Part shown: piece by piece, positions 32,514-48,003 of the stretch | Position numbering within the stretch: the stretch's first letter is position 1 | Layout: each line of letters begins with the position of its first letter | Assembly (NCBI RefSeq): GCF_023973145.1 | Contig: NZ_CP099546.1 | Span: 2,480,001 to 2,544,000 of the forward strand | Source of the DNA: Natronosalvus vescus | Lineage (GTDB): Archaea > Halobacteriota > Halobacteria > Halobacteriales > Natrialbaceae | Reading direction: 5' to 3' | DNA length: 64,000 bases | Notes under the pieces: generated by a model | Databases searched by the model: none | Seen by the model: only the letters and a program-made list of their open reading frames with translations | Told to the model about the DNA's origin: nothing | Program-made: the position numbers and the translations under genes

Positions 32514-33123
32514 ACCTCAAGTGTCGACTCCCCCGGCCTTGTACTGTGCTGGCTATTCACATGAGTGTCAGTTCCGGTGATGCATTGGTGTCCCGCGAGG
32601 GCGCTCGTTCCGTCGATAGGACGTCGACTACGTTGGTGTCGTGGCGATAGGGCGTCGACTGCGTTGGTGTCATACGCGCGAGCACGCATTCGCGCATTAT
32701 GCAATAAATCGCCTCGAGGATCAGCTAATCGGCTCGAGGTCAGTGGAGGATCGACACGACCCCGGTGAAGCCCGTCCCCCGGTAGGTCGACGTATCGGGC
32801 TCAGTTGCCAACTGTTTCATTCGGTAGTAGTGGCTTACACGTACAGCGGAATTCGTATGATCGTGTTACGACCGGTTCGAGCGTCGTAATCCCTGCATAC
32901 AGGAGAGCGATAGCGCTATCAGAGGGAAAATGATTGCCTGGAAGCGCGTAATCGTCGCTTATTCGGCCGACGGAGGCCTGTCCAATCGATCCGTATGTTC
33001 TTCTCTACCTGATCATTCGTCCAAAAAATCGTGAACGAACAGTCTGGTTCGAACTACAATATGTAAATTTAATGAATGTGCAACGAAAAAGTTTATGTGT
33101 GAAAGGCCAGGTTACGCAAATGC
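32514..33123. other. Intergenic region with short tandem repeat and promoter
   Basis: No gene is supported in this 610-bp interval. A 27-bp unit repeats at 32614-32640 and 32645-32671 (CGATAGG..CGTCGACT..CGTTGGTGTC) with two mismatches, at a period of 31. The right end is AT-rich. TTTATG at 33092-33097 lies 32 nt before the next ATG and matches the arrangement of the paralogue promoter at 34617. Confidence 0.55.
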
Positions 33124-34083
33124 ATGGCGAAGAAGTCTCCCACTACCGACGTTGAATCTTCGACTTCCACCCGTAATTCGGTCTTACCCCGCCGATCGTA
33201 CCTCCGTTCGATCGCGACGGCCGCTGTCGCGACGGCCGCGGTCGGTGCTGGCACCGCTGCCGTGGCGGCCGACACCGACGACTACGAGACGGTGACACTC
33301 GATGCCGGTGAGGATCTCCTGGTCACACTCGAGGACGGCGAGACGCTGGAGAACGTGCTGTACGACTGCACGGCCGAGGGTGCGCGCGTGACGATCGCCG
33401 CGCACGCGACCGACTGGACGGTTCGCAACGTCGGTATCAAGGGCGAGTTCGACAACGGCGCGCCGGACGCCGCGTTCGGCATCTCCGACGTCGGCGGCGG
33501 CTCGAGCACGATCGAGAACGTTTACGTCGCCGACGGCGCGGTTCACGGTTCCCAGGCAGTCGGCGAAACGGCGTTCTGGGTCGCTCCGGATCACAACGGA
33601 CACATCGATTTCAAGCGCGTCAACGTTCAGAACTTCCCAGACAACGGCATCTACGCCTCCGCGCCCGCCGGTAAGGGCGGCGGCTCGATCCACATCGATC
33701 AGTGTTTCGCGGCGAACAACTACGTCTCCAACTTCCGGATCGGTTCTGAAGGCAGCGCCGTGACGAACTCCAACGTCTACGTCGACCGTGACGGCTACGG
33801 CGGTCGCGGGATCTGGGTCTGGTCACCCGGCACCTGCGAGATCGAGAACTGCCAGCTCGACATCAACGGCCACAATTACGCGATCGACGCCGGGGCGAAC
33901 GGCAACGGTACGACGGTCGAGGTCGAAGAAACCGACTACAGTACGGACTTCCACGGTGGGGTCAACGAGACGGCTGGCTCGACGGTTCACCTCGGCGACG
34001 ACGTCGGGACGGATCCCGATCCGGTCATTCCCAACGGCGTTCCAGAAACGCCCGAGGAGGCGGCGGCTGGCGACGACGCCTGA
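33124..34083 (+). CDS. Tat-exported right-handed beta-helix protein, short paralogue
   Basis: The 319-aa protein begins with a twin-arginine signal (RRSYLRSIATAAVATAAVGAGTAAVAA, about residues 20-48; motif RRSYLRS). The mature part has repeated short strands with conserved turns (ENVLYDCTAEGARVTIAAHATDW, IENVYVADGAVHG, VNVQNFPDNGIYASAP, IENCQLDINGHNYAIDAGANG), as in pectate-lyase-like beta-helices. Catalytic residues of lyases are not evident, so it may bind surface polysaccharide. It is a close paralogue of the gene at 34649 but lacks that protein's C-terminal repeats. Both genes share the promoter layout. Confidence 0.8.
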   Translation: MAKKSPTTDVESSTSTRNSVLPRRSYLRSIATAAVATAAVGAGTAAVAADTDDYETVTLDAGEDLLVTLEDGETLENVLYDCTAEGARVTIAAHATDWTVRNVGIKGEFDNGAPDAAFGISDVGGGSSTIENVYVADGAVHGSQAVGETAFWVAPDHNGHIDFKRVNVQNFPDNGIYASAPAGKGGGSIHIDQCFAANNYVSNFRIGSEGSAVTNSNVYVDRDGYGGRGIWVWSPGTCEIENCQLDINGHNYAIDAGANGNGTTVEVEETDYSTDFHGGVNETAGSTVHLGDDVGTDPDPVIPNGVPETPEEAAAGDDA

Positions 34084-34648
34084 TTCGACGATCATACGAC
34101 GCTGACGTGTGCGGTGGTTCCTGCTGACGCGTGCGGTGCGCCCTCCTACGCCTGGTGCATACACCGATTCGGTGCAATTCGGTCTCGCTGTTTTCCCGGC
34201 TTGCTGCTGACTCACAAGAGGCGGTATTTTTGTTTTCGTACGGCTCCTAATGTCTGTTTCCAGACGTCGCACGTACGCTCACCTCTTCTCTCGCGTGTGA
34301 ACTCGAGCACTGCCTATTCCAGTGTTCGACGGAACCTCTTGCTCCTGCTTCCGGTAATCGCTCCGTGATAGTCTCCGTTCCCGAGGGGTAGTAGCTCGTT
34401 ACCCGGATGTTACTCACTCGAGCAGAACTATCTCGAAGGTGGATACATCGATTCGTTCGGGCTAATTCGGGCGTCTGGCCTGGTAATACCATATTAGACG
34501 TCTTGCTTCCCCAAGTTGAGATATAAAGAATTGTGGGAGTTCAACCATAGTTTCTTCGAGATAAATTCTCACAACTGTTAGTATCTGTAAAATCAACTGT
34601 TAATATCTACGGAAGATTTATGTTGGTATGTCCGGATTACCAACTTGC
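34084..34648. promoter_or_regulatory. AT-rich region with direct repeats before the long beta-helix gene
   Basis: The right part is unusually AT-rich. A 15-bp unit occurs twice, at 34572-34586 (CAACTGTTAGTATCT) and 34594-34608 (CAACTGTTAATATCT), with one mismatch and a 22-bp period, about two helical turns. The TATA-like TTTATG at 34617-34622 follows nine bp later. The geometry suggests an activator or repressor binding as two copies beside the promoter. No gene is supported in the left part. Confidence 0.5.
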
Positions 34649-36721
34649 ATGGCACGCGACTCTTCGGAACTGGATAGCGACGATTTGGCCGCAGGATGCG
34701 ACGAAAACGGCGATTTTACCGGTAATAACGGATTACTCCACCGACGAAGCTACCTGAAGCTCGCCTCGGCGAGCGCGATCGCGAGCACGGCGATCGCCGC
34801 AGGCGCAGGCAGCGCCGCCGCGTCGGAGTACGACGTCATTTCCGTCGGTGCGGGACAACGACGCGTAATCAACGTCGACTCGAACGAGACGCTCGAGAAC
34901 GTGTTGATCGATTGTACGGCTACTGGTGCGCGCGTGACGATCGCCGCCCACGGCACGAACTGGACGATCCGAAACGTCGGGATCAAAGGACGTGTGACCG
35001 GAACGAACGCGACGTTTGGTGTCTCCGACCGGGGCGGCAACACCTCGCGCATCGAGAACGTCTACATCGGCGACGGCGCGACGAGCGGCCACCGCCACGG
35101 ACTCGGCATCTGGGTCGCCCCCCAGCACAGCGGGCACATCGACATCGACCGGGTCAACATTCAGGAGATGGGTGACAACTCGTTTTACTGCTCCGCGCCG
35201 ATGCACGGCGGTGCCGGTGGGACGGTCGACCTGTCGAACTGTTACTCCCGGGACTCCTGGGTCTCTCACTTCCGCCTCGGCGAGGGCTCGGTGACGAACT
35301 GTACCGCCGTCAACACGGCCGCACACAAAAACGGCCGTGGCGTCTGGGCCTGGGCACCCGGCATGGTCACCGTGGAGGACTGTCAGCTCGCGACGGGCGG
35401 TCGCCACTACGCGGTCGTCGCCGGGGCAAACGGCCGAGGAACCAGCGTCCACATGCGTAACACGCAGTACGACACCGGATTCAACGGCGGTCTCAGGCGG
35501 ACGAGCGGCGCGACGATCGACCTCCAGTCGGGCAACGGCACGAACCCGCGCGATATGGTCCCCGACGGCTGTCCGACCAGCGCGGAGGAAGCCGCGGGCG
35601 GGTCGGCGTCCTCGAGCGCCGACGGTCAGAGCCAGGCGAGCGGTCAGGAGTCCACCTCGAGTCTGCCGAACACCATCGTCTTCGACGGCCGCGAGGCGAC
35701 GGCCGAGACGACCGAGTACGAGTTCACGGCCAGCGGTGCGGTCGAACCCAGCACGGACGACGACGCGACGATCGACGCCGAAGCCCAGGTCGACGGGAGC
35801 CACGCCGAGGGTGTCGTCGCCAACTACCTCGACGCCTTCCGTTTCGAGGGGTCGATCGTGTCCCTCCGCGTCGACGGCGACGCAGCGGTTCGGGTCAATG
35901 GCGTCGAGATCGACCCCAACCGGTTCGACGACCGACTCGAGAACGTCCTGCTCGTCGAGGGCAGTGACGAGTCGGCTTCCCGGTACGAGTTCACCGTCGA
36001 CGGCGAGCTCGTTCCCTCGACCGACGAGGGCGCGACGATCGACGACGGGCTCGAACTCGAGGACGGCCACGTCCAGGGAACCGTCGCCAACTGGCGCGAC
36101 GCCTTCCGGTTCGATGGCGACCTCGAGCAACTGACGATCGACGGGCCGGCCACGGCTATTCTCAACGGCGAGGAGATCGACCCCAGCGACTACGGCGTCG
36201 ACCGTCCGAACGTTCTCGAGATCGAGGGTACCGGCGAGCCTGCGAGCTTCGAAGTGACCGTCGACGGGACGATCGCCTACGACGGCGACGATGTCGAGGA
36301 CGTGACGGTCGTCTCCGGGACGACGGTGCAGAGTTCGATCACCGACTCGACCCAGCGATTCACCTACTCGGGCGCGCTCACCGACGTCACGTTCACCGAC
36401 GGTGACGCAACGGTTCGAGTCAACGATGACGCCGTCGACGTCGCGGACATCGGCGACCACGAACTGCTCCCTCACGCGATCGTTATCGACGGGACGGAGA
36501 CAGACGATCCGGCAACGTACTCCTTCAGAACCACCGGGAACGTCGTGAAATCCGACTATCGGAACGCCTCGATCGACGAGGACGACATCATCGAGGGTCG
36601 GGCCGTCCGCGGTGCCGTCGGCAACTGGCTCGACGCCTACTGGTTCGACGGCGAGGTCGAGGACGTGACCGTCCTCGGTGACGCCGACGTCGACATCGTC
36701 TACAATGCCCGCGATCAGTAG
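34649..36721 (+). CDS. Tat-exported beta-helix protein with four C-terminal beta repeats
   Basis: The product is about 690 aa. It has a twin-arginine signal (RRSYLKLASASAIASTAIAAGAGSAAA, about residues 32-58) and then a beta-helix domain closely matching the paralogue at 33124 (ENVLIDCTATGARVTIAAHGTNW, IENVYIGDGA, VEDCQLATGGRHYAVVAGANG) to about residue 310. After a Ser/Gln/Ala linker come four related units of about 85 residues, each with a strand (NTIVFDG, NVLLVEG, NVLEIEG, HAIVIDG) and a VxGxxVxNxxDAFRFxG core. Start 34649 is preferred to 34628 because it matches the paralogue in TATA spacing. A surface-binding role is likely; the ligand is unknown. Confidence 0.82.
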   Translation: MARDSSELDSDDLAAGCDENGDFTGNNGLLHRRSYLKLASASAIASTAIAAGAGSAAASEYDVISVGAGQRRVINVDSNETLENVLIDCTATGARVTIAAHGTNWTIRNVGIKGRVTGTNATFGVSDRGGNTSRIENVYIGDGATSGHRHGLGIWVAPQHSGHIDIDRVNIQEMGDNSFYCSAPMHGGAGGTVDLSNCYSRDSWVSHFRLGEGSVTNCTAVNTAAHKNGRGVWAWAPGMVTVEDCQLATGGRHYAVVAGANGRGTSVHMRNTQYDTGFNGGLRRTSGATIDLQSGNGTNPRDMVPDGCPTSAEEAAGGSASSSADGQSQASGQESTSSLPNTIVFDGREATAETTEYEFTASGAVEPSTDDDATIDAEAQVDGSHAEGVVANYLDAFRFEGSIVSLRVDGDAAVRVNGVEIDPNRFDDRLENVLLVEGSDESASRYEFTVDGELVPSTDEGATIDDGLELEDGHVQGTVANWRDAFRFDGDLEQLTIDGPATAILNGEEIDPSDYGVDRPNVLEIEGTGEPASFEVTVDGTIAYDGDDVEDVTVVSGTTVQSSITDSTQRFTYSGALTDVTFTDGDATVRVNDDAVDVADIGDHELLPHAIVIDGTETDDPATYSFRTTGNVVKSDYRNASIDEDDIIEGRAVRGAVGNWLDAYWFDGEVEDVTVLGDADVDIVYNARDQ

Positions 36722-47283: not shown

Positions 47284-48003
47284 GGCGGTTTCAGGAGGGT
47301 TCGTTTTTTGACGGTGGATCGGTGGCCTCGAGTCCTGTGTTTAACTCTTGGTGCTGGGTTGGCTCGAGTCGCCGTACCGATTCAGGATACAGGGCTGGCT
47401 CGAGTTCTCGGTCTGATTCGGTACGCTATGTGGGCTCGAGCATTCGTTCGGGATCGCAGGGACGGGTTGGGTCGTAGCGACATCTCGGCTGCGTAGACGA
47501 GTGTCGAGTCTGCGCTCCCGATGGGAGTCGGTCGGTCGCGTCTCCACCCTGATGGGTTTCCCACACTCTCAGACGCGTTCGAAACTGTGAGCGTGCGACG
47601 TTCCTGATTGTCTCGAGTCCGGAGACTACACTTTCATTTTCTGATCTCTGGGATGGGAAAAACTACGCAAACCGGTGTTTATATCGCTCGAGCGACGCGT
47701 TTTGCCGGTGTTTCGTGCTGTCAGCCTCGCTGAGTGTTTCACGCTCGACAGTCACGGGACTTTATATGTGATCTCGCGGTGATTTGTCGATCACGTCTCG
47801 AGTAATACAGGCTTACACTGCTCCTCGAGGCCATTTGTGTGGGTTTCGCACACCCCAGACCCACCACAAAGCATTTATAATTATAGGCCATCGGTATCTA
47901 ATACCCCTACCCAGGGTGACAGTAGTAAGTAGGGCCTCACACACGGTAATGTGTGATTGGGCACGAACGATACTGTTGCCGTAACAACAATACAACGATA
48001 ACA
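47284..48003. promoter_or_regulatory. Long upstream region and 5' leader of the S-layer gene
   Basis: The 720 bp contain no gene. The left half has GGCTCGAG-type repeats about every 35-45 bp (47356-47440). A BRE/TATA-like CACAAAGCATTTATAATTATAG lies at about 47866-47886; initiation about 25 nt later leaves a 5' leader of about 100 nt. In that leader, TCACACA (47937-47943) and TGTGTGA (47950-47956) form a perfect 7-bp stem with a 6-nt loop. Repeats TGTTTCxxGCT-like at about 47711-47750 may be regulatory. S-layer genes need strong, controlled expression. Confidence 0.6.

Follow-up and report, generated by a model that had tools for sequence, protein, structure and literature searches.

A conserved, helically phased palindrome array at paired beta-helix genes of Natrialbaceae points to a putative multi-operator control system

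Multi-operator control is a known kind of regulation. In the lac operon of E. coli, a main operator at the promoter is accompanied by auxiliary operators upstream and within the coding region, with helical phasing among them. Here, we describe an array of like design in a 64,000-nucleotide stretch of the haloarchaeon Natronosalvus vescus (contig NZ_CP099546.1, positions 2,480,001 to 2,544,000; hereafter, the window), where copies of one palindrome surround the promoters of two neighboring paralogs, termed A and B. The A/B array differs from lac in its archaeal TATA/TFB promoter, a probably leaderless mRNA and a larger number of auxiliary sites; looping is a feature that we infer here. In archaea, presumed repression loops have been noted in a review (PMC7408454, accessible portion), and the control regions of Ss-LrpB and other archaeal Lrp-type regulators, as described in the accessible portions of two reports (PMC2995911, PMC4046817), resemble the A/B array in carrying several palindrome copies of ~15 bp, helically aligned, near the core promoter. 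Compared with what those portions describe, the A/B array has larger and more variable spacing, contains a conserved intragenic site that forces a rare codon and targets two paralogs plus an unrelated gene. In the literature searched—with subscription journals and preprints outside its scope—neither a GTAAT-type operator nor looping in haloarchaea was found. The shared phased palindrome array points to a way of controlling cell-surface proteins in archaea that has so far gone undescribed. We hold, with moderate confidence, that A and B are paired, glycan-facing beta-helix proteins exported by the twin-arginine translocation (Tat) pathway, and that both would be governed by one cooperative dimeric repressor acting at shared phased operators.

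The original prediction had placed TTTATG exactly 32 nt before the ATG of both genes; these positions, like those of the genes themselves, proved correct, and the promoter likeness it had proposed stands out against other promoters of the same genome. The A and B promoters are identical at 24 of 45 positions, whereas 155 other upstream regions—defined by first-ATG starts of uncurated open reading frames (ORFs)—reach at most 18 identities to A and 19 to B (means of 11.6 and 11.3), and TTTATG occurs at -32 in none of them; the likeness is also conserved across the family. The prediction thus survives the refuting condition set for it, a likeness no greater than among random haloarchaeal promoters. 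Beyond the TATA box and leader already noted, the match consists mainly of a palindrome that is repeated upstream of and inside the genes. It was first met when aligning upstream regions, lying between the TATA box and the ATG, ~160 bp upstream and, within the genes, before the twin-arginine codons. The palindrome spans 15 bp in a 5-5-5 layout, GTAAT-N5-ATTAC (extended consensus, GGTAAT-N5-ATTACC), and its usual complement is one or two copies at a distance of 150-300 bp upstream, a copy centered at -16 (O1) and an intragenic copy (O2). Ahead of many A/B starts, at about -62 to -52 and ~28 bp 5' of the TATA box, lies a third conserved element, (TG)TAAATTTAA.

A genome scan yielded 22 related loci, all labelled Natrialbaceae, in which tblastn and start finding defined, with the window included, 22 A and 24 B genes. 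In a de novo search covering all 4-base half-sites with spacers of 0-20, from which five near-duplicate loci (10 of the 46 genes) were dropped, GTAA-N7-TTAC was the commonest palindrome, occurring 48 times across 28 of the 36 non-redundant A/B regions; the same palindrome averaged 0.18 sites in 100 shuffles (maximum, 2), and the best of any palindrome in the shuffled sets reached 11. Across the window and the 22 loci, 70 of 75 perfect GTAA-N7-TTAC sites fall within -320 to +120 of an A/B start. The 3.84-Mb genome contains 20 such sites, compared with 7 for the control, and just three full GTAAT-N5-ATTAC sites, one of which is the intragenic site of B.

Individual sites were called at a position weight matrix (PWM) score of at least 9.39; the PWM was itself derived from the window and the 22 loci on which most of the counts rest, minus the five near-duplicates. 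By this measure, 20 of the 22 A genes and 18 of the 24 B genes possess O1, 19 and 22 possess O2, and 19 and 21 possess an upstream site, respectively. Forty-four of the 46 genes carry between two and six sites—two in 12 genes, three in 13, four in 18 and six in one, the A gene of the window—while one gene has a single site and one has none; several semi-palindromic sites per gene are also what Lrp/AsnC-type control would entail. A second set of 30 loci, one of them the window, showed both O1 and O2 in 29 (L176 lacks O2), including all 21 starts that lay outside the PWM training.

The intragenic site provides what we regard, from codon usage, as the strongest single argument for a functional array that is more than a promoter. 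The right arm of O2 coincides with a leucine codon immediately before the twin-arginine codons, and TTA is its codon in 20 of the 22 A genes and in every one of the 22 B genes (of 24) that retain it; elsewhere in the A/B genes, TTA accounts for 5 of 638 leucine codons. Since the protein has no need of TTA, the DNA itself is under selection at O2.

The spacing of the sites points in the same direction. Upstream-to-O1 distances are mainly 142-145, 153-155 and 164-165 bp, those from O1 to O2 are 54, 72-75 and 94-97 bp, and pairs of upstream sites lie 19, 31, 51-53, 62, 74, 95, 106-109 or 118-119 bp apart, with 185, 195 and 282-284 bp as rarer values. Spacing coherence peaks at 10.6-10.9 bp, a value reached by none of 5000 jittered sets and, with stricter merging (17 merged distances), by none of 20000; the merging rules were chosen after the data had been seen, and distances of class 'other' (16, 90, 141, 223, 238 and 372) were set aside. 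The distances share ancestry, so that these figures overstate independence. The sites are, in this respect, helically aligned as those of Lrp/AsnC-type regulators are, and the one-turn steps between clades would otherwise be hard to explain.

The beta-helix domains of A and B are 46% identical across 291 residues, which bears out their proposed paralogy. Both carry twin-arginine motifs (PRRSYLRS and HRRSYLKL in the pair), RR.[YFL][LIVM] is found in all 46 homologs used, and a hydrophobic segment is visible in the translations; on these motifs, A and B are predicted to be Tat-exported proteins. The longest ORF of B would open at 34628, and the conserved start is the ATG at 34649, marked by ATGGCACGCGA in 24 of 24 B genes. 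Four C-terminal repeats had been described in B and are indeed present, starting near residues 341, 432, 521 and 610; their period is ~89 residues, not the 85 first given, and the N[YW]xDA[FY]xF signature is missing from the third.

A-type (short) and B-type (repeat-bearing) genes occur together in 20 of the 22 related loci, usually with A directly upstream of B and codirectional, and convergently in four Natrinema loci. L033 and L035 show a B-type gene alone in the fetched DNA; L033 shares its contig with the complete pair of L028, giving 20 of 21 by contig. Because both gene types recur in this way, A and B are, on comparative grounds, an ancient and co-conserved pair of Natrialbaceae, and a recent duplication is rejected. 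A beta-helix relative at E<=1e-20 was found in 116 of 293 genomes of the order, and the matches were much stronger within the family.

Within B, the last three repeats of 15 of the 23 relatives are 55-61% identical to those of the window, but the helix is only 33-45% identical. Repeats and helix both exceed 57% in L014, L019 and L023, the values are 61% and 53% in L021, and the repeats are short or diverged in L018, L022, L031 (minus strand) and L035; the helix of A, by comparison, retains 42-82% identity in its 21 relatives. As repeats of at least 55% accompany a helix of at most 45% in those 15 relatives, the helix is, judged by these identities, the variable module of B and the repeats its conserved half. 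B did not, by this measure, acquire its repeats recently, and neither this finding nor the co-occurrence of A and B supports the suggested gain of a binding part by a duplicate. A division into two clean clades was likewise rejected: the A and B labels require 5 changes on the tree, where long branches meet, and we therefore make no claim as to whether fast change or domain exchange produced the variation in the helix of B. That a variable helix is framed by constant ends suggests that it adapts to surface glycans as these change. The coordinates of all features are collected in Table 1.

Table 1. Genes, promoter elements and putative operators of the A/B pair (window coordinates; centers relative to the ATG)
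Feature	Coordinates	Strand	Description
Gene A	33124..34083	+	parallel beta-helix protein of 319 aa, predicted to be secreted by the twin-arginine pathway; no repeats
TATA box TTTATG of A	33092..33097	+	32 nt 5' of ATG 33124
Putative operator O1 of A	33100..33116	.	TGAAAGGCCAGGTTACG, center -16, left arm weaker
Putative operator O2 of A, intragenic	33172..33188	.	CGTAATTCGGTCTTACC, center +56, contains rare Leu codon TTA
Putative upstream operator of A	32947..32963	.	center -169
Putative upstream operator of A	32885..32901	.	center -231
Putative upstream operator of A	32854..32870	.	center -262; 31 bp (3 turns) to each neighbor
Putative upstream operator of A	32823..32839	.	center -293
Gene B	34649..36721	+	protein of 690 aa, predicted to be secreted by the twin-arginine pathway; beta-helix aa ~61-317, then (aa ~341-690) four beta-sandwich repeats of ~89 aa each
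Start tag ATGGCACGCGA of B-type genes	34649..34659	+	invariant; same codons in 24/24 B genes
TATA box TTTATG of B	34617..34622	+	32 nt 5' of ATG 34649
Putative operator O1 of B	34625..34641	.	GGTATGTCCGGATTACC, center -16
Putative operator O2 of B, intragenic	34721..34737	.	GGTAATAACGGATTACT, center +80; perfect GTAAT-N5-ATTAC
Putative operator O3 of B	34482..34498	.	GGTAATACCATATTAGA, center -159
Putative operator O4 of B	34387..34403	.	GGTAGTAGCTCGTTACC, center -254; 95 bp from O3

The element also marks an unrelated gene. A doublet with the same TATA-operator layout precedes a 250-aa gene at 2312102 of the same genome, orthologs of which are present in 109 of 121 family genomes. Of the 30 loci fetched, 24 show a site of at least 7/8 at -18 and the other six an altered left arm, and many carry another site in the vicinity of -91 or -127; in other families, a site of at least 9.39 occurs in 8 of 20 upstream regions, at scattered positions. 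Two GxxH motifs were spotted by eye in the encoded protein, and its score against TraB/PrgY/GumN (Pfam PF01963) was 13.7 bits, below the cut-off of 26.8. Weaker target candidates were also noted. A strong site, AGTAATACAGGCTTACA, lies at 47801-47817 of the window, 195 bp 5' of a gene for a PGF-CTERM surface protein (48004; DUF7827), which is presumably S-layer-like. Two sites 22 bp apart (G000:C1:2871964 and 2871986; L082) are found 133-155 bp before a sugar-nucleotidyltransferase gene and may represent a glycan link of the regulon, and a lone 109-aa repeat protein gene has the TATA box and the right half-site alone.

How might such an array operate? With 72% of transcripts leaderless in Haloferax volcanii, according to the accessible part of the source (PMC4983044), and a TATA box at -32, transcription of A and B probably begins at or near the ATG; O1 would thus lie between the TATA box and the start, and O2 in the transcribed region. 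A dimeric regulator common to both genes would bind all palindrome copies cooperatively, bending or looping the DNA, with the upstream copies raising its local concentration through cooperativity, wrapping or looping. The bound regulator would repress transcription of A and B—we infer repression because O1 sits at the landing place of TFB and polymerase and O2 lies downstream of the start—until a change of signal leads both proteins to be made and exported. Outside the cell, the beta-helix would encounter, as enzyme or lectin, a surface glycan that differs from strain to strain, and the constant repeats of B would hold the helix in place or assemble it. Conservation extends to the palindrome, the exact places where it lies, the phasing and the genes it targets; the archaeal regulator could therefore be isolated directly, and simple spacing mutants would allow an in vivo test of DNA looping or wrapping in archaea.

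Several observations weigh against this scheme of shared repression. No regulator was found. Four Natrinema loci (L015-L017 and L020) have a degraded O1 at their B genes, the B-type paralog of L031 (minus strand) lacks any site, and the third paralog of the same genome (3809715) has a single, weaker upstream site. The array is absent from homologs outside the family, where 20 were fetched and 17 could be scored, giving 4 isolated hits and no O1/O2 pattern. The spacing distances are partly inherited and, hence, incompletely independent, and the sites may serve activation in place of repression. On the protein side, no catalytic residues were identified for A or B, and the pair in the window lies outside any polysaccharide cluster.

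A special case of the common dimeric repressor, which we consider possible with chances somewhat short of even, is an Lrp/AsnC-type (feast/famine) protein whose dimers wrap the control region and respond to an amino-acid-like effector; such a regulator may switch from activation at low concentration to repression at high. The accessible portions of two studies describe archaeal Lrp targets as clusters of imperfect, helix-aligned palindromes two or three turns apart (PMC2995911) and credit Ss-LrpB with a 15-bp palindrome, three cooperative sites and DNA wrapping (PMC4046817), which the 5-5-5 palindrome of the A/B genes and the 19- and 31-bp spacings in A genes recall. However, most A/B spacings amount to 5-16 turns (51-165 bp), so that 19 and 31 bp alone fit a distance of two or three turns; no Lrp gene that could be autoregulated was recognized among the 18 genes adjoining strong sites, part of which were scanned for Pfam families; and the motif of the haloarchaeal Lrp-type CsmR, TATCA-N4-TGATA, differs (PMC13286277, accessible portion).

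A bolder proposal than shared repression as such, put forward tentatively and with somewhat lower expectations again, is a dedicated archaeal repression loop. Here, the regulator would bridge three to six phased operators over ~400 bp, one of them embedded in signal-peptide codons by means of the near-absent TTA, and would switch a surface system composed of a constant promoter, signal and repeats and an exchangeable, glycan-reading helix, together with the 250-aa GxxH gene.

AlphaFold predicts a confident parallel beta-helix for A (predicted local distance difference test, pLDDT, 80.3; predicted template modeling score, pTM, 0.79) and, for B, a helix with four beta-sandwich repeats, their relative placement unsure (pTM 0.44; pLDDT mostly >80 in the helix region); in these models, both are right-handed parallel beta-helix proteins. 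They might be plain polysaccharide lyases, hydrolases or C5-epimerases of known beta-helix kinds, a reading of protein function that is compatible with the operator scheme but that we find doubtful. In its favor, PL6, PL9, AlgE and AlgG chains match at Z 18-21, and the beta-helix plus C-terminal modules of B resemble the A+R modules of AlgE. With VIA-align, PL6 alginate lyases rank first (Z 20.9, root-mean-square deviation 3.0 over 239 residues), sharing the fold at 9% identity, but they are tied with many other carbohydrate-active and non-enzyme beta-helices, and close to an adhesin. PL6 lyases rely on a catalytic Lys/Arg and a metal site, and alignment A2 of A shows no invariant Lys. Furthermore, neither A nor B belongs to a Pfam or NCBIfam family, making them a conserved secreted pair without annotation in these databases; Foldseek returned no match at E<=0.001 for either protein, and the sequence of B matched no solved structure. 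The top Foldseek row for B (E 3.6e-3) is WceF of Pantoea stewartii, a parallel beta-helix protein of an exopolysaccharide cluster with cleavage and lectin-like behavior in the accessible part of its description (PMC7949094), at a weak structural score and 11% identity.

Among the related loci, a 594-aa multi-membrane protein neighbors the pair in 20 of 22, a 435-aa TGGVDST-motif protein in 15, a DUF7344 helix-turn-helix (HTH) protein in 14, TFB in 13, a Wzx-type flippase in 11 of 22 and a Gfo/Idh/MocA oxidoreductase in 5; these counts are lower bounds, set by the limited flanks fetched. Such conserved neighbors, the flippase among them, point to polysaccharide, and together with the fold they make the role in glycan binding or cell contact suggested at the outset plausible. 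In the genome of the window, the ortholog of the HTH-TFB pair seen in relatives lies 35 kb from A/B.

The regulator could, in turn, be a tandem-DUF7344 winged-HTH protein, autoregulated through the same operator, which we judge unlikely. The gene of such a protein with two DUF7344 stretches (P0006, at 3804265) carries GTAAGTCTTGGTTAC centered 9 bp 5' of its ATG, as do its two best relatives a perfect site at -9 (L095 read directly, L093 from coordinates); P0006 lies 5.5 kb from the third paralog, and the DUF7344 protein frequently adjoining B in relatives (14 loci) is a further hint. Yet a match at E<=1e-15 exists in 27 of 121 family genomes, compared with a family-wide A/B array, 25 of 28 loci lack the perfect site, and the genome holds 36 DUF7344 matches. 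A separate candidate, the DUF7344-2TM neighbor (P0003), was rejected, as no perfect site was found at its gene in the loci and it belongs to this 36-member family. Finally, the notion that A and B merely inherited a generic haloarchaeal leaderless promoter through duplication is highly improbable: as a rule, haloarchaeal genes do have a TATA box at such a distance and a leaderless start (PMC4983044, accessible part), but the A-B identities exceed those of all 155 upstream regions, the palindrome recurs at -160, within the coding region and on the unrelated 250-aa gene, and both the de novo palindrome test and the concentration of sites at A/B genes contradict it.

Further observations concern relatives of the pair. 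The third paralog (G000:C1:3809715-3811886; L042) has four longer C-terminal repeats of another kind and a Wzx-like gene nearby, in addition to the tandem-DUF7344 gene. A 109-aa single-repeat protein without a signal peptide has the repeat and the start tag of B (L012 near 1779, genome 1104941; L024 1110; L027 1182). The tag ATGGCACGCGA itself, seen at 34649-34659 and also in L003, L012, L024, L027 and L188-L207, stands at the beginning of 51 distinct proteins encoded by the fetched DNA; almost all are beta-helix or single-repeat relatives, and some belong to other families without the operator. Its codons GCA CGC are fixed, while GCA elsewhere accounts for ~12% of Ala codons; this pattern may reflect a second constraint at the DNA or RNA level, separate from the operator, at the start of probably leaderless mRNAs.

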